Made by a program: the position numbers and the translations under genes
Origin: Pseudeuparius sepicola
Lineage: Eukaryota; Arthropoda; Insecta; Coleoptera; Anthribidae
Direction of reading: 5' to 3'
NCBI GenBank assembly: GCA_963920635.1
Contig: OY987299.1
Location: 122,017,373-122,081,372, forward strand
Length of the DNA stretch: 64,000 bases
Shown here: piece by piece, positions 18,601 to 60,197 of the stretch
Layout: each line of letters starts with the position of its first letter
Position numbering within the stretch: position 1 is the stretch's first letter
Notes under the pieces: generated by a model
What the model saw: only the letters and a program-made list of their open reading frames with translations
The model's database searches: none
What the model was told of the DNA's origin: nothing

Positions 18601-21600
18601 AAACATGCAGTATAAGGTATAGGAAGATCTATCCTTAGAACCTGCCTCGTGCTGCAGCCAGAGTTCCTAGACGAATTAAGAATATTATTACGATGTTTTT
18701 TAAATATTAAGCAGAGAGTCTCCAGAATAAATATCGATGTGAGGGTCAATACTTTGTGGGCTCTAAAAAGAGGACGACATGAGTCACGCAAACCAGATCC
18801 AGTGATGAATCGCAGTGCTCGCTTCTGAAGGGCAAAGACAGATTTGAGCAGTGTCTGTCCACAGTTTCCCCAGAAACAAATCCCATACCTCAAGTGAGAT
18901 TCAATGAGGGCAAAGTAAGCGTTCCTCGCTATAGCTCTACTGAGCTCACTCGAGCTAACTCTCAACGCAAAACAACCCTTGGCCAGCTTATGCCACAAAT
19001 GTTGAACGTGGTCCTGAAAGGACAATTTACTATCAATGTGCAAGCCAAGAAACTTACAAGAGTTTGACTCTTTCAAAGTTCGACCCCCTTCGATATATGG
19101 GCTGGGCAGCGAGTTTTGGGAAATGCTGTCTCCACATCGGTGTCCGCATTATACAGGGTGAGTAAAAGGCATGGAAAGGCGCTTACATTTCTTGAAATAT
19201 TGGTAACTAGAAAAATGTTTTGGTACAAGTTTTTAGCATATTTTCAAGGTTGGCATGATATATATATCAAAATATATATATCTTGATATATATCTTGATA
19301 TATATCTTGATACATATCAAGATACTTATTCTTTGATATTTATCAAGATATATATCAAGATCTAAAATGCAAGTACTTAGTTATAGCCCTGAATGCTTAC
19401 CATTATCAAGACTGATGTAATGGGGAACTTGAACATTTTTTTTATTTCTTGAATATATTTGCCTATCTCTAGAAAGAGCACATACCAAATATCAGCTCTC
19501 AAATCACAATATTTAATTTGCAATAAATAATTAAAGTTGTGACCGCAAGCTATTCATTTGAAACGACACGAAAAGCGCGGGAATGGTTGTGACGTCATAT
19601 AGCTCGATCGATCAGAAGGCAGTGACAAGAGTGACAGCTACACAGAATTAGGGAAGGAAGAATGGAAATAGAACATTAAAATAAACAGTTCGGCGACCCA
19701 TTTCCAGAGGGATCTGACGTAGGTCAAAAATAAGAACCGCCTAAAAGTTCAAATTTAACAAGCACTTCTTTAACTGAATGGTGAGGCTACAGGCCTACAG
19801 GACTAGTAATTCGTAGGTCTCGGGTTCAATCGCACAAGAAGTTTTTTTTTATTATCTCTGTATTCTACCTCTTATATTTATCACTGATTATCATTTTTAG
19901 TAATAATTGGACAATGGTTATTATGAAGATTATTACACAATCTACTCCATAGTGCATTTAAATTCAAAATACTTACCTACCTAATATGGAATTGTCAGTA
20001 GCAGGAAAAATGTAATACACTGCTCGATGCGTAAGCTCTTTTTGGCCTTGGAGAGAGTTTTAAGACCCGAGGAAACGCGGGCGTTAAACAACCTCCTCGG
20101 CCAAAAAAGTGCGCTTACGCATCTCACAATGTAAATAACTATTTAAGAGGGGGTTGCCGACAGCGAAAGTGACGTCAGATTTCGTATTTTTTTTAAGTTG
20201 TGTAGCATAAAATCTAAGAACATTTTACCTGGCAAAAATTTAGTACAAACATCTCTGTCTTAATTTTAATCATAAGATCTTAAAAGCATATGCACTGGAA
20301 TTATTATTTTTCCCAAGGTTTTCATAACCTATAAAACAAAACCCTGCTTTTAATATCTTATGATTAAAATGAAGACAGAGATGTTTGTACTAAATTTTTG
20401 ACAGGTAAAATGTTATTAGATTTTATGCTATACAACTTAAAAAAAATACGAAATCTAACGTCACTTTCGCTGTCGGCAACCCCCTCTTAATACAGCACAC
20501 TCTTCAAACATTATCAACAATATCAAGACTGAGATCGACTATAACAAGACGGATAGACAAGGATGGGACGTTCTCGTTGATCTTTCTAAACAAAGCTTGC
20601 CTGGTGCTGTAGTTTTTGTACATGTGCCGCCCATATTAGTTTATACATGGTGCCGCCGCCCACCAGAGGCGCCACCACCAACGAGCTACTTGACGTCACA
20701 ACCAAGGAGGGCGCGTTTCAAGAATGATTTGAATTACTGACATTTATTACATAAAAATAAAAAATGAGTTTTTTTTGTGAACTGTGATTCATTTAATGAC
20801 AATAAATTAGGTTTGAAAGTAATATCTTTGAAATGTAATTTTTGTGCAAGTCCCCCATTATAATAATTACCTAATAAGTAGGAATAGCCTATTTTTGATA
20901 CCATTACTTCTTACCGACAATTATTTTATAGGAGTTTTTTTTATATAGGTATACAATCTAACGTTTTGTTTTTTGTTTATGAAGTTTAGTATTTATGTGT
21001 TATTTGAGAATAATTTTTTTTTAGTTTATTTATAGTAAAGTACAAATAAAAAACGCTGGAGTTTTTTTACAATATTTATACCTTAGATATACAAAATTCA
21101 ATTTTTTTTTAAATAAATATCAAGATTTGGATATATATCAGATATTGTATATCGATAAATAACTGATATTTTGATATTTATATAAATATCATGATATTTG
21201 CCAACCTTGCATATTTTTAACCAACCAACTTTATTTTTTTAAATGGCATGATATAATTTTTTTTTTGAATTTTTGGATACGTCAGTATAAAATTTTAATG
21301 AGGTCCAAAGAAAAATTGAGAATAAAATCACTTTTCTAAAAATCACCTCCTTCAGTTGGATTTTATTAATCCACTTCTTATCAAGTTAGCCATGGAATTC
21401 AAATGAAATATAAATATCTAGAATGTAGTTATACCCCGATTACTGTAAGAAGTCCCGATTTTGTCAGATGACATTCTCCACAAAATCCCTAGGAATTTTC
21501 TGTTAACCATGGGTATAACATTGGTATATGCGTCGCAATCAGTTAGTGACGTCACTCATTGATTTATGATGTGAAAAGTAACCAAAGTGATACGAAAAAA

Positions 21601-24600
21601 AAAAGAACATAATAAAATAAATACCCTATTGCAATCACCATTATACCGCTACAAATAAAAATAACTACAACTCATTTTAATAATAATTTCAAACGTCATG
21701 GAAACACTTTCATTTTGGTATTTTGGTATAATCAGCTACTTGCGGCTGCGTCTATGGTGCGTACTCAGGCGAATTTTATTTCGGTGTTGTGAAAGTGACA
21801 GTGAAGGTTTTCCGGATCGTTCAAAAAGGTTTAAACTTTGGGCAGTGAAAATATTCGCGGGTTTTGTACGTTTTGGGAGTTTTACCGTTATCTGTGTTGT
21901 TCTTGTTCGTGTTATTAGTAGTTATTCATTGTGCAAATGGGCTCGTTACTGACCTGAACTTATGACCCGGTTGCATTTTTTTCTGCATTGATGCCAACTT
22001 GGATGGGGAAATTACCAATTGACAGTCCCAGTAAGAACTTCTTAAAATAATTTGACTATACAAAGACAGAAAGATTTTGAAGAACTGACAACTAAAGTTA
22101 CTATAGAGAGGTGAGAAGGATATTGACTTCAAAATTATGCACTGATAATAATGGGTAACATTTTCAAAATTTATAATTTATAGCATTAACAGTTCTTAGT
22201 ATGATCCTTGCCCTGTGATTATTATTTTGATTTGTATTCAAATTTTGTATCCCTTGAACCCTAGACATATTTCAATTGACTTCAATGGCTCACTTTATAA
22301 GAACTGGATTGATGAAGTCAAACCGAAAGAGGTGGTTTTTAGAAAAGTTAATTTTTTCTCAATTTTTTCTTATGGAATTTCATTAAAAAACAAAGTTGGT
22401 TGCCAAAGCAACAAAAATGTTTCCCAAAGAGCTATAGTAAAATTATTTTAAGAAGTCCTCACTGGTAATTTCGCCATCCTAAGTTGGCATCAATGCAGAA
22501 AAAAATGCAACCGGGTCTTAAGGCCAGGTCAGTAACGAGCCCATTTGCACAATGAATAACTACTAATAACACGAACAAGAACAACACAAATAAAGGTAAA
22601 ATTCACGAAACGTACAAAACCCGCGAATTATTATTATTATCTCGACTTAGCCAAAAGGCATTCGCACTCCCTCTACGGGGAACATTCACTCAGATCCCGG
22701 GTATCCCGGATACCAAAAGGATCTGGCTCGGACGAGACCCTTGCCATGTTATCGGGCCTTAGGTGACATTGATGTTGTTGGACGTTCCTGCACTCCCCAT
22801 GAATTTCCTGACGGTTCGGGCTGTCGCAAGTAGTACCGCTTTCTGCATGGACCTGTAAAGACTATCAGTTAGACCCAGCTCCTTGATGTTTCTCAGCAAA
22901 CTTTTTGGTATAACACCAGTTGTTGACATGATGATTGGAATCGTCTGGACGTTCTCCATTTCCCATTGCCTTCTAATTCGTTCTTCTAAATCTCTGTACT
23001 TCACGATCTTCTCGACTTGCTTCACGCGCAGGTTGTTGTTGTTCGAGATGGCCACATCAATCAGAGTTGTCTGCCTAGAAATTTTATCAACTATTATAAG
23101 GTCCGGTCTGTTATTCTGTCAGAACTGTACGATCCCAGTACATCTTGTAGTTGCTGTTCTCAAGAACAGGCTCAGGTGTGTAGTTGTAATATGGGACCCT
23201 CTCTGCCTGCACAAGCAGCAGCTTTTCCGCCAGTTCCTGGTGCAAGATCTTGGCAACCGAATCGTGTCATTCCTTATATTCCGTTGATGCGAACATCTGA
23301 CATCCTCCTGTTATGTGCTGGATTGTTTCTGAAGTTGGGCACCCGTATCTGCATCTGTCATCCACTACCGATGCATCTCCTACAATGAATTTTAGGTAGT
23401 TGCGAGTTGGTATAACCTGATCTTGTATGGCCAGTAGGAAGCCTTCAGTCTCGGGGAACATTCGTCCCGAGGTCAGCCAATAGTTCGACGCTAACTTGTC
23501 GACATGTTCCTGGTTAACCTCATTAGGATGCCTCCCGTGCAGCGGCTTCCCCCCCCACCTCTGTAGTTTATCGTCGGTTCGGTGGTGATTTTGACGCTCG
23601 TGTTCCGTCAGACGTAGCGGTGTTGAGACGTCTGCTCCGCATATAGCCCTATGTAGTGTGGAGCTGTTGGCCTGCCTGTAGAAATAATTACGCAGATTTA
23701 ATATTTGTTGGTCCAATTGCTTGCTGAGATCTGCCAATCCTCTTCCTCCTAGTTGACGTGGCAGAGTTGTTCTTTCTACGGCGCTACGGGGATGATGTTT
23801 ATGAGCTTTTGTCAGTAGTTTCACAACACCGAAATAAAATTTGGCTGAGTACGCCCCATAGACGCAGACGCAAGTAGCAGATTTTACCAAAATACCAAAA
23901 TGAAAGTGTTTCCATGACGTTTGAAATTATTATTAAAATTAGTTGTAGTCCTAGTTATTTTTATTTGTAGCGGTATAATTGTGATTGCAATAGGGTTTTT
24001 ATTTTATTATGTTCTTTTTTCGTATCGCTTGGGTAACTTTTCACATCATAAATCAATGAGTGACGTCATTAACTGGTTGCGACGCATATACCAATGATAT
24101 ACCCATGGTTAACAGAAAATTCCTAGGGATTTTGTGGAGAATGTCATCTGACAAAATCGGGACTTCTTACAGTAATCGGGGCATAGCTGCTTAGACAAGG
24201 AATCATCACGTAAACTTAAATAAACAATTTTTTCACGTTTCCGAATAGGCTGCCAATAACAAGTCTACAATCTCTTGTTATAATAATATTTCTTATTTAA
24301 TCTAACCTATATATTTTGTGATTTAATCTAAAAATGTTACATTTTACACAATTCTACAAAGATCCATCCCTTGAACTAACAATAATAGCGATAATGATAA
24401 TAGTTCTATTTATGAAGAAATTGTAGGATATTTTCATTTTAAAAATTAGAATTCAAAAATTTGCACTACACTTAGTAGGTATTATATTATTATGATATAC
24501 GCATCCTCCATCCCTTATATGAGGAGGGATATATGAGTGCAGGCATTGAATAAGGAATTCCCTTAATCAATGGTGCAGGGTTATGCACATAACATTTTAC

Positions 24601-27600
24601 CCCCCTTAACTCTTTTATTTTTCGTGATAGAAAAAAATGGTATATAGAAAAGTTGTAGGGAATTTTCTTGCGAGTTTAAAGAGCATATCAGATCTGCCGA
24701 TATACAGGGTGTTGTCAAGATACAAACCAAACCTGTTTTTTTTTTAAATAGAACACCCTGTATATTATTGTTTTTTTCAAATCTATTCTTCATTCCGATT
24801 TCAACGATATATATATGTAATATGTTTGGTTCAATGGTTTACTCGGAATTGGCTTTCAAATACTGGATTATCATATATCCAGATTGCCACGAAAAATAAT
24901 AAACTGTCATGATAACAAAACTTTGACATTTGAAAGAACAAACGATATCAACCAATTAAAACAGAAGATAACTGAAGAAATCCGACTCCTCAATGAATCC
25001 GGCGCAGTAGGTAATAAATTTTAAGAGAAGCCTAGTTAAGCGATATAATCTCTGTCTTGCGCAGGATGGAGGCGTCATCGAACATCTTTTATAGTGTAGG
25101 TGCTAACTTCATAGTAGTTTATACATATATAGGTCTAATTCATCAATAAATCTGGTTTGTTTTTATGTTTATTATTTTTTATTTATTTATTGCAAGAAAC
25201 TACAAAACTAAACCTAATGGTTTACTACTGTCAAATGTCAAATTTTTGTTATGACAGCAAATTCCGAGTAAACCATTGAACCAAACATATTACAGTATAT
25301 ATCGTTGGAATCGGAATGAAGAATAGATTTGAAAAAACCAATAATATACCGGGTGTTCTATTTTAAAAAAAACATAGGTTTGGTTTGTAACTTGACAACA
25401 CCCTGTATATAGGCAGATCTGATATGCTCTTTAAACTCACAATAAAATTCCCTACAACTTTTCTATTTACCATTTTTTTTCTATCACGAAAAATAAAAGA
25501 ATTAAGGGGGGTAAAATGTTATGTGCATAACCCTGTACATAGAGCTCCATAAGGCTTAGATTTATCAATGTATTTCGTTGTATTTATAATATGGTTGATC
25601 AATTAGCAAGTGATAATTAAATCATAAAAAAATATTAGTGGTACTTGGTACTTACCATAATATTAACATTAGACTACTACCTATAACTGCAACAATGCAA
25701 ATATGTAACTTCAACCAATGTTTATAATAGTATCCTTGAAGGAATACAATAATTATAACATTGTATTCACATTTCTAGCCTGAAAGAATTTAGGTAGGTA
25801 TCTTGCAGAAGATTTCATTAAATTTCTCAGAGATAGACACAGTTAATATAAATAGCTGTTATGTGAACTCTTGATATTTTGTAAAGCAAAATTGAAAAAA
25901 GTGACTATTTTTATTTTTCCATTAAGAAGGATTCCTACGTGATTATCCTGAATTTAACTTTATTTAATATTAGGTACAATCCTTATTTATACGTCTCTGT
26001 ATAAACAAGGGTACAATCCAAAAGGATATAGGTAGGTAAATATATTTTAACACACGTGCCTATTCAGATTACCTACATTTTTATTATATTTATTTTTTTA
26101 TGTGTGCGTTATATACACAACTTTGAACAGATTACTTTTAATGTTTCAATGGCCACAATTTTAACAGTTGCTTAACTTTTGTCCGTTTTATCTTCAATTC
26201 ATAACTACATTTTTTAACCTGTTGGTTTAGTGTGCCGACCAATTGGTTGGCAGAATACTTATACTATTTACTAAAATGCCAGCCAGAAAATGCTATTGTC
26301 GTTGCAACGCCTAGCTTAAAGAAAGAATCTTGGAATAAGTGAGACAACTATTTAGCAGAAGATGTGAGTCCTGGGATTTAGGCTTCACGAAATGTATTTT
26401 TATGTCTCCATTGGTAGGCAGGCTATATACACTTTGTATTATTTTTTAACTGCTATTTTTAACCGGCTATAGTACTGTTAAACAAGAACTACTTATAGGT
26501 GTTTGAAGTAGATTGATGGTATTTTAATTTAGGAAGTGGCTATTTATACGTCCGACGTATATGAAAGTTGGTATACGTCTTGCGCTCTGATTGGCGAGTC
26601 ACATGACTTCTTTGGACGGACATTTAGCTCCATCACAGAATAGTGGCTCCATACATGTCCGAATCCGAAGTAGAATAATTTAGATATGTCGGAAGTGCAT
26701 TTTTCTCAAGCATCGTTGCAATAACGAGCGTGTATGCCCTCCTTTTTCGGCGATGGGCGCTGCGGTATGAAAAAAGAAGTGATAATTATTTTCAATGATG
26801 TAACCCACCCCCGATTTTCTTGAAATTTTGGCCCTATTTTCGTCCGACATTCGGCACCCGCCAAATGGTTAAGCCCGATTTATAAACTTTGATGTTCGAC
26901 GTTTCCGTTTGACGTTTGAAAGTTGGACATCGAAGATTATTATTTCTTAACTCAAATTCCGTCAGGGATAACAACGGAGCTCCTGGAAGTCCGTTGGGAC
27001 ACAGACACAGAATACTATCAGCATATAAGTTGTTTTATATGCTCTGATACACTGATACTATTCTGCACAGAGAAATTCCTTTGTCTATGCTATTCTGTAA
27101 GTTGGGATAACCAACATATAATTTTTATCTTTTTCCGTTTGTCGTTGCCTGTCCGGCCAATGAAGTGCCTTCTTAAGTCACGTGGGAGGTCACATGGTTT
27201 CCCAGTTTATCAGCTGATCATCTGTACTGATTTTGTGTAAAGTTTATAAATCCGGCTTTTTACAGCGCTGAACGTCGGGCGAAAATAGGGGGTACCTGGC
27301 CAAAATTCAAAAAAACGGTGGTGGGTTACACTATTGGAAATAATTACCACTATACGTGCTCCTTATTGCAACGATGCTTGAAAAAAAAAGCACTTCCGAC
27401 GTATCTAAAATCAGTTTACTTCGGACGTGTATGGAGCTAAATGTACGTCCAAAGAAGTCACGTGACTCAACTCGCCAATCAGAGCACAAGACGTATACCG
27501 ACTTTCATATACGTCGGACGTATAAATAGCCACTTCCTTTAATTTATTATTATTTTGGCATGACTTTTGTACTGGAAAATTTAATGTAAATAAAAACTGA

Positions 27601-35400: not shown

Positions 35401-38400
35401 TAAACTACTTAAAAATTGATATTGCCAAATGTAGAGTTATAGTCTAAGAGCCAGCGTACATGTTCCAGTGATGATTTAGTTAAGGTCTATTTTTTGCAAG
35501 GATGTTGGCGGGGCCATAACCAAGTGTCATCCGCTAGGATTAACCCTGACTCCAGTCATAAGGGGGTGGCAGAACGCCCCTTACTGGTAAAAAAAAATAC
35601 ATCTTTTTATTATTTACTTGAGGCTGAAATGTTTTCCAGTGCACCTCTGATGGCCCGAAATTATCGATATAATATTTTTTGCAGAACGATAGGCCAGTCA
35701 TAAGGGGGTGGCAGATCACCCCCAAGATGTCGTGTGAGCAATGAACTTTTTATTATTTAGTTAAGCTTAATTTTTTAATATGTTGTTATGACAACTATTT
35801 CAAGTGTAAATGCCAATTTGCAGAACAAAATGGCGGTATTAACACTCTGGCAGAACAATTCGAATGTTCCCTACGCGTGCCTTCATTGCGTACCATCAGT
35901 CGCAAAATAACTTTGCAATTCTAAGGGGTACGAAAAAGTTTTCTCAATGTTTTTTGTAGTAAATTTAATTCTCTACATAATAGATCTCTTGACATTTTTT
36001 TGAATTTCGCTTGCTTTCTGAGATATAGTGAAGATAAAAAATAATTTGCAAATATTTTTTACATTCAGGCGCGGATATCTTCAGAACTATACAAAATACG
36101 AGCACAGGAGTAAGAACCAATTTTGTAGAGAATTGTATTTCCAATAAAAAAGGTTTTTTGATATCTTAGTGTATCTCGTTTAGTTTCTGAGATATTGCAA
36201 AAAAAATAATTTTCTTTATGAACAGAATGTTCGTAAATGACAGTTAGCAGAAAAAAAAAACACAGCGGGGAGATTTATTAACGGTTGCGCTCCGCCGGCT
36301 CTTTTCCGTAGCGGCTGTGACTGATACGCAGCGTAAGAAACTTTCCGCGTTGGTGTCATTTTTAAACTAAACCATCTACTGCAACTATAATTTCTTCATT
36401 TCAAATCACGGAGAACTCACGCACACAATATGCACAAAATCTAAATAAAATTAAACGCCTGTCTGGCGTTCAGTCAGGAACAATATTCAAGGCTGTACCC
36501 TACGTAATACTTATTTTTTTATATTTAGTATCGTATGTTAATGGAATAAAAATGCAAAGAAATATAAATACATTATATCCTTGTCTATCCTAGACAAGGC
36601 TTGTATTAATTATTATTGCAAATCGCAATTATTTGAAAAATTTCACCATTTACTTGAAATAATAAAAATAATTATGAGTTGGCATTACGATGTTTTTTGA
36701 AATATTCTTATTTATTTCGTGTATGTTAATGATTCAACAAAAATTATTGTATATATTTTTCATTTATTTACATCGTAGAACTTCAATACTTTTGATTTTG
36801 TTTAAAACGTTTTTTGTAACTGTTTTCATGGCAATCGGTTTTCCACTACAATTAAAATATTATATATCATATTTGGGATACTCAATCGACACTAATTATA
36901 TTGTTCTGAAATTAGTGTCCTTGTAAAAATCAGATACCACGAATGCCACAAAAAAAAAAAAAGATATTCGCGCCTGAATGTAAAAAATATTTGCAAATTA
37001 TTTTTTATCTTCACTATATCTCAGAAAATAAGCGAAATTAGAAAAAATTTCAAGAGATCTATTATGTATAGAATTAAATTTCCTACAAAAAACATTTAGA
37101 CCACTTTTTCGTACCCCTTGTAACTGCAAAGTTATTTTGGTACGCAACGAAGGCGCGCGTATGGAACATTCAAATCGTTCTGCCAGAGTGTTAATACCGC
37201 CATTTTGTTCTGCAAATTGGCATTTACACTTGAAATAGTTGTTATAACAACATATTAAAAAATTAAGCTTAACTAAATAATAAAAAGTTCATTGCTCACA
37301 CGACATCTTGGGGGTGATCTGCCACCCCCTTATGACTGGCCAATCGTTCTGCAAATATTATATAGACAATTCCGGGCCATCAGAGGTGCACTGGAAAACA
37401 TTTCAGCCTTAACTAAATAATAAAAAGATGCACTTGTTTTTACCAGTAAGGGGCGTTCTGCCACCCCCTTATGACTGGAGTTAGGGTTAATCTTCTCGGA
37501 TGACACTTGGCTATGGCCCCCCAACATCCTTGCAAAAAATAGGCCTTAACTAAATCATCACTGGAACATGTACGCTGGCTCTCCGACTATTATGCATTTT
37601 CACCGAAGTAGAAGTAGTGCTGCCATAGAGCCTATATATAAAATTGGTGGGGTTCCCTTGCGGTGTGTTGCTTCCTATAATGATTTGGGAGTAACATTTG
37701 ATTGTGATCCGTCATTTTCACTACATATAGAAAATATTGTAGGTACTTAAAGCTCTTCGACTGCTGGGTTTTGTTAAAAGAAACACCAGACTGTTATCAG
37801 ACACAAAAGCTTTGACCTGTTTGTATTGTGGCCTAGTTAGAGGTGTACTGGAGTACTGTCATATTATTTGGAATCCTCGTTACCAGTGCTACATTAAGAG
37901 GGTTGAAAAAATTCAAGAGCGTTTCACTAAATACCTATTGTATAAACTTCACTTCCCGTATCATGGTATAGAATATAGAACCAGGTTACTATTATGTGGA
38001 ATGAAAAGCCTTGAATTTCGTTGTAAAGCTGCCCTGTTTGCTTTTGTGTGATTCTACTGTAGTGTGCTAAATCAATCAATAAATAAATAAATAATGAAAA
38101 TTTAACAGTATAGTCACAAGAGAACTTGTTGAGACACGCGACAAAAAATCTGACAAAAAAGTCAAGGTTGCCATTTTCAAGTTGAACTTATAAAAAAACT
38201 TTGAAAGTCATCAGCAAATTAAAAAAAAATCCACAACGCCCTGTATCTCCTTAATGAGCGGTATTTGTATAAGAAGTTAAGGGTTTAATCGTTATATTTT
38301 GGTCCCTCCTATCTTCGGTTTCAGAATTTCCCATTTCCAATAATTAATCAATCTGTATTATATGACTCATGAAATTAATGGTTTTTAATTAACCTTACCT

Positions 38401-41895: not shown

Positions 41896-42315
41896 TACAT
41901 ATGTTTTTCTGATTTGTCGGTGTCCCGAAAGCAGTTGTGGCTGGAAACTTCTTAATATTATATGCCAAATGGACTCGACAAACAAGCGGCGATCAAAATT
42001 TCGCACCGGGCGCTTATTTTGGGAAATATGAAGAGCATTATATTTCTTAGCTACATTAGCCGATATCTAAAGACGGACCTCAATATCAACGCATTTAGAA
42101 AATAATACGCTTAAAGGTTGGAGTCCATTTCACAGATTTCATTAAGGAACCTTCTGTTCTGGTTTTAGAGTTGGGGTACCTTACAATGTGATCACATGAG
42201 AATTAACCTTCCCCTTGTAACTTGTATTTTTCGAGTTAAATATAATATAAAAGTTGTATGGAACTTTGAATATAAAAAGGACAACGGATTTTTTTAAAAT
42301 AGACCACCATGTCTA
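41896..42315. other. TRABD 3' flank
   Basis: It probably includes the TRABD 3' UTR. I see no canonical AATAAA in the first few hundred bases, so the transcript end is undefined. Confidence 0.35.
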
Positions 42316-43027
42316 CAGAGTGTCTCACTTAAGAGTGAAACAACCCTTTAATTTTTAACCGACCAGAACGAAATTTTTACCAAAGGTAGATGGCATTGTT
42401 GCCTACTTATTTCCAAAAAATTAGTTGCCTACTCCAAAGTCAAAACCACCTGCGATGCCACAAACGAGGCTAAAAATCCGAAAGTCATTAGGCAACAAAA
42501 TTTACTAGAAAAAGTTGTTCAGAATCGATTCAAAACCCTAAATCCAAAATTTTGTCAAAATCAAAAAATATTAAATAAATAAAAAATAAGTAAAAAATTT
42601 AAAATTTAATTTTTTAAAATTTGTTTTGTAGCTTTTATTTTAAAATAATTACTTTATGAAAACAATTTGCCTCAAAACTTCCATCACACACTTTTCTAAA
42701 CACAGAAAATTATTAAATTGCTGTTTTTGGAATTTAATTTTTTTAAATTAATATTTTTTGATTTTGACAAAATTTTGTATTTAGGGTTTTGAATCGATTC
42801 TGAACAACTTTTTCTAGTAAATTTTTTTGAAAAAAAAAGCCTAATATGACTTTCGGATTTTTAGCCTTGTTTGTGGCATCGCAGGTGGCTTTGACTTTGG
42901 AGTAGGCAACTAATTTTTTGGAAATAAGTAGGCAACAATGCCATCTACCTTTGGTAAAAATTTCGTTCTGGTCAGTTAAAAATTAAAGAAGTTATAGGGT
43001 TCTTTCACTCTCAAGTGAGACACTCTC
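42316..43027. mobile_element. Foldback element, 712 bp, TA-flanked
   Basis: The ends CAGAGTGTCTCACTTAAGAG and CTCTCAAGTGAGACACTCTC are inverted, with TA on both sides. The arms are about 290 bp (shared GGTAGATGGCATTGTTGCCT, CTGCGATGCCACAAACGAGG-like words, and GAATCGATTC) and the spacer is short. There is no coding sequence. The CAGNGTGTC start is like the IS630-type elements at 16841 and 44892. Confidence 0.8.
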
Positions 43028-43059
43028 TATATTCAGGTTAATGTTGATTTTATTAAAAG

Positions 43060-44722: not shown

Positions 44723-44891
44723 AAGTAGGCTGTATCAAAGAGTCGTCAGCATTGTCATTTTAAAGAGACGGTAGCTTGAATTGGGGAGAATTATTTTTTC
44801 CAGCTGGTTGTGAAACAAAAAAAATCATTGGTAATTTTCTAGTTTATCCACTTTTGGGTTAGAGAAAAACTAAAATTACCTTTGTGTTGTA

Positions 44892-46578
44892 CAGGGTTTT
44901 TCCGTATATTTTTCAACCCACCCTAGAACCTCCATTTTTGATCCTAGAAAAAAACTTTTTATATGAAAGTTATAGGATTTTTTACGAGCCATTTGAATCT
45001 GTTAACAGATGAAACAAACGAACGTCGGAAAATTGAGAAAAATATATAAACTTTGTTTTTTTAAATGGAACACCCTGTATATTTTTGGATTTTTGAAATC
45101 TACTGGTTCTTCTGATTCCAATGATATATGTATATATGTTACATATTTGCTCCACCCGCCTGCTCAGTATTTCACGTTGCATAATTTGACTATATAGTGT
45201 AAGGATCAAGAGACCCATGGAAAAACAAATTTGTATTTATTCATAGATATTTTAATAACTTTATTAGAACTTTATTAACAACAAGAAAAATAAAATAATA
45301 AAGGGTTATAAATATCTCGACGTATCCACCATTAACTTCGTAACATCTTGTGATATTGTTTTTCCATTTATTTAAGGCATTTGTAACGAATTGAGAGTCT
45401 TCCCTATTTAGCTCAAAAATCTCTACTTCTAATTTATTTCGAAGGGTATTGATATTTTCCGGTGTGTCATAATATATTTTATTTTTTAAATATCCTCACA
45501 TATCCAAGGTAGGCTGGTCCGGGCTGTTTGCCAGCCATCTAATTGAACCATGTCTTCCTATCCATGAATTGTATTTGTCATTCAAATAATTTGTTACCGA
45601 TTTACTAAATAAAATAATTTTTACGGACGAAGCTACGTTCACAACAGCCGGAATGTGTAACAGGCAAAATAAAAGATACTGGAACACAGAAAATCCACAT
45701 AAGTACCAAGCTGTTAAAATCCAAGGGCGACAATCACTGAACGTTTGGTGTGGGATATTAGAAAATAGAGTTTTGGGGCCGATTATTTTTGAAGGCAGTT
45801 TAACCGGAGAAAGATACAAAAATTACCTTGAGAACGAAATTGAAGTCTTACTGCAACATCTTCCGAACCGCCAACAATTAATTTGGCAACAAGATGGGGC
45901 ACCCCCACATAACATCAGGTCGGTAACAAATTATTTGAATGACAAATATGATTCATGGATAGGAAAACATGGTTCAATTAGATGGCCGGCAAACAGCCCG
46001 GACCTGCCTTCCTTGGATATATTTCTGTGGGGATATTTAAAAAACAAAATATATTATGACAGACCGGAAAATATCAATACCCTTCGAAATAAATTAGAAG
46101 TAGAGATTTTTTAACTAAATACGGAAGACTCTCAATTCGTTAGAAATGCCTTAAATAAATGGAAAACAATATCACAAGATGTTACGAAGTTAATGGTGGA
46201 TACGTCGAGATATAACCCTTTATTATTTTATTTTTCTTTTTGTTAGTAAAGTTCTAATAAAGTTATTAAAATATCTATGAATAAATACAAATTTGTTTTC
46301 CATGGGTCTCTTGATCCTTACAATATATAGTCAAATTATGCAACGTGAAATACTGAGCAGGCGGGTGGAGCAAATATGTAACATATATATATATCGTTGG
46401 AATCAGAAGAACCAGTAGATTTCAAAAATCCAAAAATATACAGGGTGTTCCATTTAAAAAACAAAAGTTTATATATTTTTCTCAATTTTCCGACGTTCGT
46501 TTGTTTCATCTGTTAACAGATTCAAGGATCAAAAATGGAGGTTCTAGGGTGGGTTGAAAAATATACGGAAAAACCCTG
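44892..46578 (+). mobile_element. IS630-like foldback element with arms reaching into the transposase gene
   Basis: TA flanks CAGGGTTTTTCCGTATATTT and its complement. The left arm 44892-45605 is an inverted copy of 45920-46578, about 700 bp each; the unique spacer is only about 315 bp. The right arm holds the 3' third of the transposase frame, so the left arm contains the same coding text in antisense, and the normal 5' part of the gene is missing. It inserted at a TA in the outer palindrome, whose other arm preserves the empty site. It is a sister of 24576-25535. Confidence 0.85.
45605..46114 (+). pseudogene. Tc1/mariner-like (DUF4817-type) transposase fragment
   Basis: The frame starts without an ATG at about 45605 and ends at TAA 46114. 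It keeps FTDEATF (first catalytic Asp), NVWCGI, WQQDGAPPH (second Asp) and WPANSPDLPSLDIFLWGYL (third Asp); 40 residues lie between the second and third Asp. The N-terminal DNA-binding region is replaced by the inverted arm. After the stop, another frame continues as NNITRCYEVNGGYVEI, the usual family ending, so a frameshift lies near 46114. Not functional on its own. Confidence 0.8.
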
Positions 46579-47770
46579 TACATAATCCCAGAAACACAGA
46601 AACCACTATCATATGTTGCTCCAATGACCGGAAGTGTCCCAAAAAAATTATTGAAATCTAGAGACAATAATACGTATAAAACCAGCGCCATGATGTTTTT
46701 CAGCGGCTATTGCGGGTGCGCTGACTTCGTTACTAGGCAGTGTTGTCAAACGCACGCATTAAAAATGTTTGACCCTTTGGGAGTTGCAACGGAGTTGCGC
46801 CTTTCTATCATTACAATGACCCTGTGGGAGTAAAAACAAGTTTCTTTTTAGGGCAAGGAAAATATCAAATATGATGTCAATTTCGTTTCGAAAATATTCT
46901 CTAGGCTTTTGTAATTAAATAAGGAAATCGCTACACTCAGGGCAAGGAAAATTTTTAAGGAAACATTTTTAATTCGTGCGTTTGACAACATTGTCTTGTA
47001 ACCAAGTCAGCGCACCCGCAATAGCCGCTGAAAAACATCATGGCGCTGGTTTTGTACGTATTATTGTCTCCAGATTTCAATAATTTTTTCGGGACACTTC
47101 CGGTCATTAGCGCAACATATGAAAGTGGTTTCCGTGTTTCTGGGATTATGTACAACACAAAGGTAATTTTAGTTTTTCTCTAACCCAAAAGTGGATAAAC
47201 TAGAAAATGACCAAATCATTTTTTTACCTACCATTATTCCTCAATCAACAGAACTCCTAGTCCCGAGGATAATACATTTTGCCATGAGAGTGCAGTTGTA
47301 ATTTGATACAGCCTACATAATGTACATTTGTTTATTCCGTATTTTTTTTTATTTATTGTTGCTTTGGATATTTGATATTAAAAAACAAGGGCTTTTAAAT
47401 AAATTTATGGATTGCATTTATTTGTATATTTCGTTCGGTTGGAGGTTAGATTTTTACATATAATTAACGTAAAGTAAATAACGTACAATATTATTGTCAC
47501 ACAATGGAAGACTTTGAGGCAGATTTAATGCTTTCAACTTAAGTACCACTTGTTGCCAATATCTAGATAAGTTACCACGTTGAGATTTCTCGTCAGATGA
47601 AATCTTGTAAAATGAGATTTTGTTTAAGATAGACTTTACTTTACAGTCTCTATTCTGAGACTTAAACAAATATAATTATTGAATCGTCTGATGAGAAAAC
47701 CGCGTTTCCTACAAAATATCGGCAATCTTTTACCCTGAAAAAAACAACAACCATGCGGATATTGGCGATG

Positions 47771-50700
47771 TTACTCAACATCCCGGGCGCAACGGAAGCC
47801 CAAGTTCTGAGCCGAGCTGTCTTTGGTGTTGGACGAGCGGGCAGCGCACCTGTAGCGCCAACAGTACGACTTGTGGCAGAGGAACGAGCCACCCCTCTTC
47901 ACTTTAGACTCCTGGGAAAATTATATTTTTGTTACTACCGGTGTATATTAAAATTGTTTCGTTAAAATGTGGTGGCGTTTCATTTCAGAACCTAACGTCC
48001 TGGGACTCAGAGTTAATATTCAAATGGCAAATACTTTAACATTAATGGATTTTTAATTTGTTTTTCTGCTTAAATACACTCAGGTGCAAAAAAACAGGGC
48101 CATCTAATATTTTTTCAAAATCGGTTGTATTTTTTTTTCAGTTTAAGCCTGATTTTTAATTGATATAAAGGACTTCCTATTCTTGTTTTAATAAACAATA
48201 ACATAAATAAAGGAAAATATATTGTTGTTCATTTAAAACGAGGATACGAAAATACACTCACCGGCACGAAAAACGGAGCACTTATAATTTTTATTTAAAA
48301 AATGTAAAATTTTAATACTTTGCAATGGTTTATTATTATAATAAGTTAAAAGCAAACAACAACATGTTTTAAGTAATATCTAACAACAATTAAACGTTTA
48401 TTTGAAAAGCAAGACTAGACTTTTGAATAAAAATTTCCAAAAATTAAAAAGTACACAAGTCTTAGTTGGCCATGACTTTTCTTTTGTTTTTATTGTTTTG
48501 AGTTTAAAGAAGTGAAACAGTTCAAAGCTGTACTGCGTTTATTTAAGGTAAAAATATGGCTGTTAATCCTGAAACAGCGGCTGCTATTGTTGCGTTGCTT
48601 CAAGACGGAAGAACTGAGCGATATGTTGCCCAACAATATGCCGTATCCAATAGCACTGTGCACCGTATTTATACACGTTTTTTGGAAACTAGAGCTTACA
48701 CCAGACGACCTGGAACTGGTCCCCAACGAAAAACTAACGCTCATGATGATCGCTTCATCCTCTTGCAAAGTCTACGAGATCGTCGTGCTACAGCTGTAGA
48801 AATTAGAAATAGACTTCATCATGTTCGGAATACCAATGTAAGCGAACGTACAGTTAGACGAAGACTTGGAGAAGCCAATCTTACCAGTCGTAGACCTGCA
48901 ACAGGTCCAGAGCTTCTTAGGCGTCATCGTGTTGCGCGACTTCGGTTTGCCAGAAATCATGAGCACTGGGGTGAAAATGATTGGGGGCGAATTTTATTTA
49001 CTGATGAGTCCAGGTTTAGCCTGCGATCTCCAGATGGTCGCGAGAGAGTATGGCGAAGACCACAAGAGCGTTTTGCAGAATGTACCTTCAGTCCTAGAGT
49101 AGGATACCAAGGAGGTTCAGTAATGGTGTGGGCTGGAATTTCTCTGGAGGCACACACTGAGTTGTACATCGTTCCAAGAGGCTCCTTAACTGCTGCCAGG
49201 TACATTGATGAAATTCTCCAAGATTTTGTTGTCCCGTATGTTGATTTTATTGGAAATAACTTTCTTCTGATGCATGATAATGCCAGACCTCATACCGCAA
49301 GAATCACTCAACAGTATTTAAATGATGTAAACATTCCTGTTTTGGAGTGGCCAGCGTTAAGTCCAGATGCGAACCCGATTGAACATGTTTGGGACATGCT
49401 TGGGCGAAGAATGCGAAGTCGTGTTCCTGCTCCTTTAACCATAAATCAGTTGAAACAAGCTCTTTTAGAGGAATGGGACCTTATTCCTCAAGAGGACATT
49501 CGCCATTTGATTTTAGGCATGCCACGGAGAATGCATGCAATCATTCGAGCTCGCGGGGGTAATACCCGTTATTAAAAATGCTCCTCATTAGTTTTTGCTC
49601 AAAAATCGTTTAAGTTTTGATTCATTTAAGGACATTTTGCCACAACACCAATGTGGGTTTATCATTCTAATTTTTTAAATTGTAACAAAAGTTTTTATTT
49701 AAAAAAAAAGCGCCCAATTGTTATTAGAAATTACTTAAAACATGTTGTTGTTTGCGTTTAACTTATTATAATAATAAACCATCGCAAAGTATTAAAATTT
49801 CACATTTTTTAAATAGAAATTGTAAGTGCTCCGTTTTTCGTGCTGGTGAGTGTATATTAGGTGGCCCGTTTTTTTTTGCACCTGAGTGTATTTTATTTTC
49901 AGTTGATAAGGCTCTAAAATTTTAATAAATTCAAATTTTCTTTACTTTATCATTTTGCCAATCATCCTGTGTCCATTCCCACACATTCCCGGCCATATTG
50001 TGTAGTCCGAATTTGTTACTAGGAAACTCATTGACTGGAGCAGTAAATACATATCCATCTTCAGCCGTGTTTTCTGTTGGAAAAGTACCTTGCCATATGT
50101 TGATCCTAAAAGTTCGGAAAATATAAAGTGTGTTTTCGCGAGCAAAACCGTACAATTTTTTTTAGGTTTATCCTAAAACCTTTCCTTTTTGCGAGGCGGT
50201 TTTACCAGAGGGGAGGTCTCGTTTTGTTCTTTGTGGATTATTTTGTAGCATTGTTCAAGATTAATATAATAAATACAAGTAAAAACAGCTTTCCAAAAAC
50301 ATCAGTTTTCGCCAAAATTTACTTGGAGGGGAATATATTCATGACGTCAGACTTAAATCAAACAAAACCTGCCTAAACCCTGTTCCTGACCCCCAAAAAA
50401 TTGTTAAATGACTATATGGTTTATGGTTGATGATAAAGGACATGATAGCTCTGTTCGCGTGAAATTTTAAGAACCGCCCCTATCATTGGTCTGAAACAGT
50501 CCCGCGAATTTTTAATTTACCTAACAATTGCAGTAAAACTTTTGGTACGGTTCTTAAAATTGAACGCGAACACAGCATTTATGAATAGGGCGCCACATCT
50601 ATAGGTTCTGAGCTCATTGAATAGGACCAAAAGAAAATTAAACTGAAACAAAATTGAACAATTTTGACACAGCTTAGCTCCTCATCGCAAAGCCTGTTAA

Positions 50701-53237
50701 TTTTTTTTTAACAAAGATTAACTATTGTCGGAAATTTATTTGTGGCGCAAACAGATCCATTTAATTTTTAATTTGGTTTTTCGTCACAGAACCTCAACTA
50801 AACTGGTTAAAAGACAACTTTTTTGAGTTGCCAGCAAAATTCATAAATGCTTAGCAGTAAACGAAAGAAACATTTATTATCTGAAAGCTCATAAAACAAG
50901 TGTTGAAGTAATTTTTTGAGTTATACATTCAAAGTTTCATTCATTTACTGTTAAGCATTTATGAATTTTCTTGGCAACTGAAAAAGTTGTCTTTTAATCA
51001 GTTTAGTTCAGGTCCTGTGGCGAAAAACCCAATTAGAAAATTAAATGTAAATGACAGATTCATTTTTTTTTATTGGACAGTGGACCTATTTTTTCTGTAT
51101 TAGTTTGGACGTTTTATCAGATTTTGTTTAGTTTAAGAAATATTGCTTTCACGAACATTTTTTCTACAAGGTTCTAATAAGTTTTAAGCCATTAAATAAT
51201 TTCAAAAAATATAGTCTAGTTTTTCAAAATTTATTGATAGTGTTTGTTATCCACCTTGGATTCTGTAAAAAAGCAAAACTTTCACTTCTCGCCTCATCAT
51301 GTGGCTTGCAACTGAGAGAGAACTAATTAAATCTGTTCAACAATAAAATAGTCTAAAGCTGGTTATTCTGTTTTTGCCTAACCGCCCTTGTAAACTGAAC
51401 CGCCATTGGGTCCTAGCGCCTCCACCAATTTTTAGCCATCCGGCAGAGGTCGCTGGTGCCCGCCTGGATAGCCGCCATATTGTGTGCATTCTAGGGGTTT
51501 TAGAGTGCATTCCAGGGGAAAAGCAAAATTTGTGGTGGCAACACAAAATGACATTTGACAACGGCCAACCACGACCCATAGTTGGTCATGGTATCAAAAA
51601 ATCAGGCATTTTTAGAGCTTTCCAACAATATAATATTTGTTATGGTTATTCGGAAAACAACGGAAATAACTATGATTTCCATTTAAAAAACACAAGTTTG
51701 TGTCATATCTGGAAAATGGCAATTGTCACAGAAAGTAGGACATGACAACGGCATTGGGGACACAATTCCCTCCAACTTTTGTATTTACACTTTTCATCTA
51801 AAATCAGAAACAACGAAGCAACACTAAAATCGAGCAACTCTTACGCCTGGTGTAAACAAGAGCACGTGCATTGAGATATTCGCCAGTGCCGCACAGAGGC
51901 ACGACCTTTATTTAATTCTAGTTTTACAATTGTTTACATCAAAATATTTCGGAAAAAAATTATTGGCTTCATTAAAATGGCTCAAAACATCGATAAAATT
52001 ATTTGTGGTAGTGTCTAAATAGCTGAAAACAATAAGATAAAACCGCATAACTACACTTTTGCGATCGAGTATGCCCCTGTTGCCGAGTAGGGTGAAATTT
52101 TATCATTGAATTGACTTGTACTTATCAATTCGATGAATTTTATAGTCTACCGACCAATTTCAAAATATCTAGTAAGCTATGACTTTTTCAAAAATCCACA
52201 AGGTGCATTAAATTGGGCCTACAAAACTGCAATTATTTCCCCATTTAACCTTCCTTCTATCTCCACTAGCTTCCGAGATCCCCATACTGATCATCAAAAA
52301 AAAAAACTCACCCTGTATATGTATATTGGTGGGACAAATGATTTTATTGGAAAAGCAGTCCAGTTTATTTTAAGAGGGCCATGTTTTCCCTACGTAAAAT
52401 GTTACTTTTTGTATTGCAAATTTACCAGTGTTCGCCTTTTGGATTCAGTTTGTTCCCCCATGGGTATAGTTTTTGTCTTAGGCCTCCCCTGCAGGCCATT
52501 TCCCATTCTGCTTCGGTCGGCAACCGTTTTCCATAATGTTCGCAAAATTTGACCGCATCGTTCCAAGAAACATGGACCACAGGATGATTCAATTTATCTA
52601 CAAATACAGAAATAGATATTTAAAAAACTATTCACGTTTCCGACTTCACGCGACATTTTTTTGTAGTAGCATCACATCACATTGTTAACCAAAATAATTA
52701 AAAAATGCAGACAAATTTATTTCTCAAGAAAAAACTACCCTTGATGGAACTGTGTGGGCCCTCTGGACGTCCCCACGTGACGCCCTTCATTTTTATCCAC
52801 CACGGCGCCTGCACAGCCCTTACATCCTCGTATTTATTCCTCTCGTCTTGAGGCAAGGACATTTCAAAAACGAAACTATCTCCGAACATCTCCGCTTCGG
52901 TTTTGTACTCTGTTTCTTTGATAAACTCTTGAAATTTTTGATTCGATACTTCATACTTATCTAGATAAAAAGATTCCAGCGTCATATTGCGAACGGGGCC
53001 TTCGTAGTCGTCTTGAAAGACCGGTTTGTCTGTCCCCATTTCGAAAGTGCCGCCTTCGATTAGAACCATATCGATATTGTCGGAGTTTTGGTTTGTGTTG
53101 GCTTCCCTAGAGTATTTTTCGCTGGGTACGGTTTCTTTGCTAACACATTCACCATTTCTGTTTGCGCCGCAGCCGCAATCGGCAAAAGAACATTTTTGAA
53201 GGTATGTAAGTACCAGAAATGAAAAGAATAAGTACAT
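47771..53237 (-). CDS. SUMF1: Formylglycine-generating enzyme (sulfatase-modifying factor 1)
   Basis: Four exons join in phase: 53237-52739, 52597-52426, 50105-49946 and 47911-47771 (TAA), giving 323 residues (human SUMF1 374). In the ER lumen the enzyme oxidises the active-site cysteine of sulfatases to formylglycine. A signal peptide (residues 1-19, [10 protein letters not shown]) precedes the CGCG word (C21, C23) and YSREAN, both conserved. Then come [95 protein letters not shown] and the catalytic pair C294/C299 in KSYCWRYRC. Intron 3 (2.0 kb) is almost all Tc1 DNA; without it about 220 bp would remain. The last exon is GC3-rich. The protein is a little short, mainly in the N-terminal extension. 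Confidence 0.95.
48255..49852 (+). mobile_element. Tc1-like element, 1.6 kb, [16 protein letters not shown]
   Basis: TA duplications (48253-48254 and 49853-49854) flank inverted ends CACTCACCGGCACGAAAAAC and, complemented from the right, CACTCACCAGCACGAAAAAC. The inverted repeats extend about 150 bp (AAGTATTAAAATTT, TAATAATAAACCAT and CAACAACATG words). The size and a single uninterrupted transposase gene fit a recent Tc1 insertion. Confidence 0.88.
48556..49575 (+). CDS. Tc1-family transposase
   Basis: A continuous frame of 339 residues, the usual Tc1 length, from ATG 48556 to TAA. Residues 1-50 form the first helix-turn-helix, then an AT-hook-like RRPGTGPQR, a second helix-turn-helix with ERTVRRRL, and the catalytic core with D150 (FTDESRFS), D241 (MHDNARPHT) and E276 (NPIEHVW), 34 residues between the last two (DD34E). 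It excises and inserts the element at TA sites. No stop or missing catalytic residue is visible, so it may be active. It is encoded antisense to SUMF1 within an intron. Confidence 0.93.
   Translation: MAVNPETAAAIVALLQDGRTERYVAQQYAVSNSTVHRIYTRFLETRAYTRRPGTGPQRKTNAHDDRFILLQSLRDRRATAVEIRNRLHHVRNTNVSERTVRRRLGEANLTSRRPATGPELLRRHRVARLRFARNHEHWGENDWGRILFTDESRFSLRSPDGRERVWRRPQERFAECTFSPRVGYQGGSVMVWAGISLEAHTELYIVPRGSLTAARYIDEILQDFVVPYVDFIGNNFLLMHDNARPHTARITQQYLNDVNIPVLEWPALSPDANPIEHVWDMLGRRMRSRVPAPLTINQLKQALLEEWDLIPQEDIRHLILGMPRRMHAIIRARGGNTRY
50448..50576. repeat. Short inverted-repeat element, 129 bp
   Basis: GCTCTGTTCGCGTGAAATTT at the left is mirrored at the right by AAAATTGAACGCGAACACAGC, and TTAAGAACCG / CGGTTCTTAA pair further in. 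It lies in SUMF1 intron 2. No duplication of flanking bases was found. Confidence 0.6.
50758..51047. mobile_element. Hairpin MITE, 290 bp
   Basis: Inverted arms of about 115 bp share CATTTAATTTT, GGTTTTTCG, CACAG, CTAAACTG, AAAAGACAACTTTTT and AATTCATAAATGCTTA. It lies in SUMF1 intron 2. The flanks show no clear duplication. Confidence 0.7.
51048..52425. other. Rest of SUMF1 intron 2, nothing recognised
   Basis: Open frames at 51374-51745 and 52133-52552 lack motifs, and the latter runs through exon 2 of SUMF1 in antisense. No element ends are visible. Confidence 0.35.
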
Positions 53238-56004: not shown

Positions 56005-56381
56005 GGTAATTATGGAGCATAGTGTATGCACCGCCCGATTTTCTTGAAATTTTGGCTACCCCCCTATTTTCGAGGTCCCTGAACACGAATCTGACCTCAG
56101 TGTTTTGAGGTCGGACATAGTTTCCGAGAAAATGAATTTTCAAATTTCCTTTTGACGCCCCACTTTTTCACAGTAAAATTTATCTGGATTATAACCACAA
56201 ATGTCGCCGTGAAAAATGGGGTGTCGGGTGTCAAAAGGAAATTTGAAAATTCATTTTCTCGGAAACTACGTCCGGCCTCAAAAAACTGAGGTTAGATTCT
56301 TGGTCAGGGACCTCGAAAATAGGTGGGTAGCCAAAATTTCAAGAAAATTGGGCGGTGCATATACTACGTTCCATAATTACC
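56005..56381. mobile_element. Hairpin MITE, 377 bp
   Basis: Inverted arms of about 165 bp: GGTAATTATGGAGCATAGTG on the left is mirrored by CTACGTTCCATAATTACC on the right. Each arm has CCGATTTTCTTGAAATTTTG (or complement), CGAGGTCCCTGA, GGAAATTTGAAAATTCATTT. Only about 45 bp separate the arms. The open frame 56216-56413 is a by-product. Confidence 0.75.
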
Positions 56382-59324: not shown

Positions 59325-60197
59325 CAGGGGCGGATGGACTTTACCTAACCAGCCCGGGCATTTGTCTCCCAAGCGGCCCCTAAACATCTCATTTGGCTTT
59401 AGATTTTTCTTTTCTTAATTATTATCATAATAACAATTAAAAAAACAAACAATGTAGATAATGTATTTTTTTAATAAAACAAAATATACATGTTTTATGA
59501 AAACATAAATAAAATCATAACTCTCGTAAAACAAATAAAACTTTTTTCTCTAAATATAAAGATATAAAAATAACAAAACATTCAGAAGGACCACACCGTT
59601 ATTTTATTTTTATTGAATTCGAAATTCCGACTTTTAAAGTCGAAGGCCAACTTTGAAGTCAAAATTCCGACTTTATAAAGTCGAAATTCCCACTTTTAAC
59701 TCGAAATTTCGACTTTGAAATTCGAAATCCGACTTTGAACTCGAAATTCCGACATTGAACTCGAAGTTTTGACTTTATGAACTTCCAACTTTCAAAGCCG
59801 AAGTTCAAAGTCAAAATTTTGTGTTCAAAATCGGCATTTCGACTTCAAAGTCGGACTGCGACTTTAAAAGTCGAAATTTCGAGTTCAATAAAAATAAAAT
59901 AATGGTGTGCCCCTTCTACATTGCCGTAAAACACGTAAAGAAATAATAGAACAAAAATAACAAAACAAAAATAATTAATTATGGCCAGTTGCACCGTCCT
60001 ATCTTAAATTAACTACCTACTTACAACAATTATTGTAACAATGATTGCCTTTTGTTTTGTCAAGTAGTTAAGACTGTCTTAAAATTTAAGATGCGATGGC
60101 CGATGAGCCTTCGAGCCTGCGGCGGCCCTCCGGGGCCCTTCGAATGACCGGCCCACCGGACATTTGCCCAGTGTCCCGGTGGTCCCATCCGCCCCTG
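59325..60197. mobile_element. hAT-type element, 873 bp
   Basis: The octamer GCTAGGTA is duplicated perfectly at 59317-59324 and 60198-60205. Ends are CAGGGGCGGATGGAC and GTCCCATCCGCCCCTG. No transposase. It holds a palindromic minisatellite at 59584-59917. The right subterminal part is GC-rich. Confidence 0.88.
59584..59917. repeat. Palindromic minisatellite of GACTTTGAACTCGAAATT units
   Basis: About a dozen imperfect units of roughly 20 bp (GACTTTGAACTCGAAATTCC and variants) fill 59615-59880, in one orientation on the left and the other on the right. The block is flanked by inverted CACACCGTTATTTTATTTTT / AAAAATAAAATAATGGTGTG, so it looks like a small foldback element inside the hAT element. 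Confidence 0.75.

Follow-up and report, generated by a model that had tools for sequence, protein, structure and literature searches.

How does a Tc1/mariner-like transposon come to hold the end of its own transposase gene twice, once in each orientation? The question is raised by a foldback element in the window, i.e. the whole stretch of DNA that was analysed (64,000 nucleotides from the beetle Pseudeuparius sepicola, contig OY987299.1, positions 122,017,373 to 122,081,372 of the forward strand). This snap-back element with an inverted partial transposase copy is real and well preserved. It is approached here through its arms, its TA insertion nested in a palindrome, its coding content and the neutral-looking decay of both arms. 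The answer proposed, held at a probability of about 0.7, is that the element lost its 5′ half, and that its 3′ end, copied a second time in inverted orientation, took the vacant place, via pairing with the wrong terminal inverted repeat (TIR) and inward copying. Coordinates are collected in Table 1.

TA is present on each flank of the element (44890-44891 and 46579-46580), and the borders can be written TA/CAGGG...CCCTG/TA, with CAGGGTTTTTCCGTATATTTTTCAACCC read inward from either end. The arms are identical at 634 of 653 aligned bases, with 19 mismatches (2.9%) and six indel events totalling 62 bases, which supplies the measure of divergence that the sequence-only reading had called for. The longest of these indels is a block of 48 bp that only the left arm contains. 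Homology spans TIR, UTR and coding sequence, interrupted by indels only, and the pairing is not due to chance since self-BLAST of the window recovers the arms at E = 0.0. The left arm is defined by this alignment together with tblastn of the window, with the 120 listed relatives (out of 161) as queries: 120 HSPs fall on the + strand in the right half of the element (45488-46213) and 119 on the − strand (45301-45705), mainly inside the left arm. Among the five clusters obtained in the window, a single one is on the minus strand, the one in the left arm, and only in the foldback element is coding sequence doubled. In the right arm, the stop codon (46213-46215) comes just after GGYVEI.

The extent of what is missing and what is doubled was judged on seven full-length relatives (352-372 residues, some with apparent retained introns). 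On this scale, the junction corresponds to residue 144-164 and the start of the inverted coding block to residue 253-273; in other words, the N-terminal ~40-44% of the transposase (first ~144-164 codons) is absent and the last ~98 codons (~27-29% of the protein) are present twice, once inverted. It had been claimed that the left ~700 bp is an inverted copy of the 3′ UTR plus the last third of the frame, replacing the N-terminal half of the gene. The inverted copy is confirmed by the arms and by minus-strand tblastn, and the loss is borne out, but both extents have to be adjusted to the values just given. Because the N-terminal part is missing, no working transposase is expected from the element.

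Table 1. Coordinates (in the window) of the foldback element, its parts and the neighbouring features
Feature	Position	Strand	Description
Whole foldback element	44892..46578	+	1,687 bp; delimited by end sequences and empty site
Left arm	44892..45600	−	709 bp; inverted 3′ end, 3′ UTR and last ~98 transposase codons
TIR-homologous part of left arm	44892..45172	+	aligns locally with either TIR of the relative at 24575-25537
Junction	45600..45601	.	inverted C-terminal coding sequence meets ...LLNKIIFTDEATF
Spacer	45601..45919	+	319 bp; single-copy transposase core, open frame; first (FTDEA) and second (QQDGAPPH) catalytic D
Right arm	45920..46578	+	659 bp; last ~98 codons, stop, 3′ UTR, 3′ TIR
Transposase-fragment ORF	45590-46111	+	174 codons; DDE_3-like
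Outer palindrome	44817..47225	.	interrupted by the foldback; empty site retained in the uninterrupted arm (46961-47225)
Relative, probably internally deleted	24575..25537	+	~285-bp TIRs; transposase C-terminal remnant confined to spacer
Other tblastn clusters	17159-17320; 25017-25091; 48562-49572; right half of foldback		first two, C-terminal remnants; third, separate Tc1-type transposase
Split formylglycine-generating-enzyme (SUMF1-like) gene	47771-53072	−	matches within 53072-52422, 50113-49949 and 47917-47780

Insertion at a TA with target-site duplication is proven, since the empty site survives in that arm of the outer palindrome which was not interrupted, and reads GTTGTACATAATCCC with a single TA. 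This empty site had been pointed out in the sequence-only reading, where it was said to date and prove the insertion; the proof stands, while the dating reduces to a relative order. Once the insert is removed, the two arms of the outer palindrome share 244 of 257 aligned bases and have four gap bases, and this identity, compared with that of the foldback arms (634/653), fits an order of palindrome first and insertion second, without an absolute age.

What the right half of the element encodes is a Tc1/mariner-like transposase from its catalytic core to its C-terminus. The ORF of this fragment matches Pfam DDE_3 (E 3e-6) at 27.6 bits, one bit under the curated cut-off of 28.6, and matches the Sleeping Beauty transposase in the PDB (7.8e-6). 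A protein database search yielded 161 proteins at E ≤ 1e-3, with a top identity of 75% among the 120 matches listed; among the few listed relatives that carry a source name, one belongs to the beetle Aromia moschata and another to a bacterial MAG record, the latter a partial protein that is perhaps contamination. Residues D13, D102 and D143 (fragment numbering) form a catalytic DDD triad, in which 40 residues separate the last two. This spacing, scored by pattern match, is found in 80 of the 120 listed relatives (41 residues in 32, 42 in two, another value in three and no motif in three). By its D spacing and TA duplication, the foldback is classified as a defective DD40D Tc1/mariner-like transposon.

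Elements of this type are known in other insects. The aphid LTIR DD40D/DD41D elements Apismar5.1 and 5.2 are reported to have TIRs of ~460 bp and a TA target duplication (PMC5490172). A gall aphid is described as having DD40D/Visitor elements (PMC9783078), and in bumblebees the Visitor (VS) elements are reported to have passed from DD41D to DD40D (PMC8472432). We infer that LTIR DD40D/DD41D and DD40D/Visitor elements form one clade. The foldback resembles them in its 40-residue D–D spacing and TA target duplication, and its parent may have had long TIRs like theirs, to judge from one relative. It differs from Apismar5, which has longer TIRs and other termini, by TIRs of ~285 bp (in one relative) starting with CAGGG, and from LTIR/Visitor elements as a whole in having no 5′ half and a 3′ end duplicated in inverted orientation.

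How much of each arm is ancestral can be gauged from one relative (24575-25537), the basis for the natural TIR length. Its transposase remnant (25017-25091, two HSPs) shows one orientation only, which supports an inverted duplication in the foldback. By comparison with this relative, the outermost ~280 bp of the arms probably represent the ancestral TIR and the inner ~430 bp the added part. Because of the DD40D type and the TIRs of this relative, a long-TIR group with ~285-bp near-identical TIRs is the probable source of the parent. The idea that the foldback arose from an ordinary Tc1/mariner-like element thus survives as regards the inverted partial duplication of the transposase gene, but not as regards the parent, which was probably long-TIR on the evidence of this one relative. 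Since the 48-bp block of the left arm aligns within both TIRs of the relative, it was most likely lost from the right arm.

The relative has CAGGGTTATGC ends and, inside its TIRs, inner CAGGGTGTT-like motifs, possibly extra transposase binding sites; one of them is inverted with respect to the end and is common to the foldback element. Transposons of the IR/DR type have a direct internal repeat. Such a repeat was considered as the cause of the long arms and rejected, the inner CAGGGTGTTCC being inverted with respect to the end and shared with the relative. Ordinary internally deleted MITEs are like the foldback in being non-autonomous, keeping both ends and having TA flanks, but simple deletion makes no inverted coding block, as exemplified by the relative at 24575-25537. 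Foldback-like Galileo derivatives (P superfamily, Drosophila) also have long TIRs; they belong to another superfamily, and it is in the present element that the arms extend into transposase coding sequence.

The differences between the arms look neutral, as judged from only thirteen substitutions in their coding parts. Three of these are scored as synonymous (23%), one of them in codon 175, where two bases differ and are jointly nonsynonymous; two remain when this double change is joined. Random expectation is 20-24% (binomial p 0.74 with three synonymous changes and 1.0 with two). Odd residues were called by comparing the arms with 60 of the 120 listed relatives. Damage to the left arm comprises P133L, L139Q, W147 changed to a stop and a 6-bp deletion removing a conserved F, and this arm probably also holds the odd residue at 158 (T for R). 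The right arm has an in-frame stop at 175 (where the left arm codes for E), a 1-bp frameshift and the 48-bp deletion, and the evidence leans towards a change in this arm at position 126. The comparison singles out neither arm at 121, 178 and 185. At residue 141, where 50 of the 60 relatives have P, one arm has S and the other T, and the parent may already have differed from the usual P. Since the differences look neutral and both arms are damaged, the arms were probably alike and open-framed at birth and then decayed separately. Divergence under selection of two functional copies before their joining was rejected, no synonymous excess being seen in these small numbers. One observation counts against a single-event origin, because such an event does not predict it: the coding parts of the arms diverge more than TIR plus UTR (13/288 versus 6/365, Fisher p = 0.035, with a split chosen afterwards). 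This gap could be due to chance or to later TIR conversion.

That sequencing artefacts are known to come from palindromes is what an assembly or fold-back read artefact would have in its favour as an explanation of the inverted arm. Yet a read artefact would be expected to give near-identical arms, not 19 substitutions and six indels, one of 48 bp, and the empty site is retained in a separate palindrome arm. Because both arms appear to have decayed separately from an open frame, we regard this explanation as extremely unlikely.

The preferred and simplest route, replacement of the 5′ half by an inverted copy of the 3′ end, is suggested by the length and identity of the TIRs. A parent with ~285-bp near-identical TIRs would suffer a gap (by excision or breakage) or undergo replication, and its left end would pair with the wrong (right) TIR during gap repair or replication. 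Copying would then run inward through the 3′ UTR and the C-terminal coding region (~98 codons), and 45600/45601 would mark where the copied strand was attached to the catalytic region. TIR homology would conceal the first switch, and the second would appear as the one visible junction. We infer this repair/template-switch route; PMC4168063 and PMC8277862 count aborted gap repair and template switching among the origins of defective or chimeric transposons. With both ends retained, the foldback might move by transposase supplied in trans.

Two other courses of events bear on this origin. In the first, a single TA would have received two identical copies in head-to-head orientation, and both 5′ halves would have been deleted later. 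The resulting structure, TA flanks included, would be the one observed, and copies that were recent would have supplied arms without initial differences. This course needs one TA to be hit twice and a deletion besides, and tblastn reveals no intact two-copy arrangement in the window (one window being a small sample); we consider it improbable. The second, also rather doubtful though less so, is that the chimera was made elsewhere, by recombination or template switching between dispersed copies, and transposed in as a finished foldback. That transposition brought in the unit or its parent is evident from the intact ends and the clean TA duplication. However, self-comparison of the window gives no second copy with the 45600/45601 junction, and the junction-spanning minus-strand ORF finds no relative in the protein database (0 of 4 candidates scored), both being weak tests. 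As this explanation concerns the place of origin, it overlaps with the preferred one, and the odds of the different explanations do not sum to 1.

The window contains further repeats. Two large inverted-repeat elements (16260-18343 and 35439-37590, with arms of ~890 and ~640 bp, ~92% identical) have common ends, GTCNNRGAGCCAGCG adjoining TA, and the spacer of the former has a C-terminal match to DD40/41D-type transposases. Many other long inverted repeats are scattered in the window, e.g. at 20143-20490, 42314-43029, 50758-51047, 56005-56381 and 59584-59917. A Tc1-type transposon (48235-49872) with SPDANPIE, 34 residues between D and E, ~170-bp TIRs and an open 342-codon frame (48547-49575), possibly recently active, lies between two SUMF1-like exon matches on the strand opposite to the gene. 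A THAP-domain match occurs at 40384-40202.

An architectural parallel comes from a plant. Mu killer, a maize MuDR derivative, is described in PMC3440606 as having two TIRs from one end, an inverted partial transposase and a gene nearby. The foldback likewise has both ends from the same transposon end, an inverted partial transposase and a nearby gene; it differs in superfamily and host, being DDE_3/Tc1-mariner-like and not MuDR/Mutator. Among the papers listed by the literature searches, none was seen to describe an animal Tc1/mariner derivative of the Mu killer type, which is not proof of absence in print. Searches for related loci in collections not meant for insect genomes confirmed none among 11 pattern matches by protein and 53 matches by alignment in viral contigs, nor among 26 matches in prokaryote genome contigs; the exact 23-base TIR pattern had no match in viral and genome contigs, and distant blastn in phages gave none. 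Given the scope of these collections, such negatives carry little weight.

This parallel raises the question of whether the element owes its retention to a transcript that would fold into a ~640-pair double strand and give rise to small RNAs against the parent transposon, silencing it in the way suggested for Mu killer. The predicted RNA fold reaches −1091 kcal/mol for the + strand, with 638 arm–arm pairs (−1081 for the − strand; −337 to −361 for five mononucleotide shuffles of the + strand), the architecture resembles that of Mu killer (PMC3440606), and the foldback lies downstream of the SUMF1-like gene, with 1,193 bp between its end and the stop of that gene (47773-47771). However, such folding is expected of any long inverted repeat, and the neutral-looking arm differences give no sign of maintained pairing. 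Moreover, four AATAAA motifs (47422, 47357, 47353 and 47336) lie between the gene and the element, which is beyond all of them, and PMC3440606 associates read-through transcripts of Mu killer with failure to silence. Retention for silencing is thus very unlikely, and silencing of the parent by the foldback would be only a possibility, and an unlikely one. Equally speculative is the wider idea that long identical TIRs predispose this transposon group to backward copying of the 3′ end, with the resulting hairpins acting as Mu killer-like silencers of the parent in animals.

Most likely, then, the element is no working device but the product of an ordinary accident of repair. It offers a snapshot of the passage from a long-TIR transposon to a foldback, with the empty site kept adjacent. 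Taken alone, it is a well-preserved repair accident; if sibling copies exist, they would suggest that long-TIR elements repeatedly yield hairpin derivatives able to feed RNA silencing.
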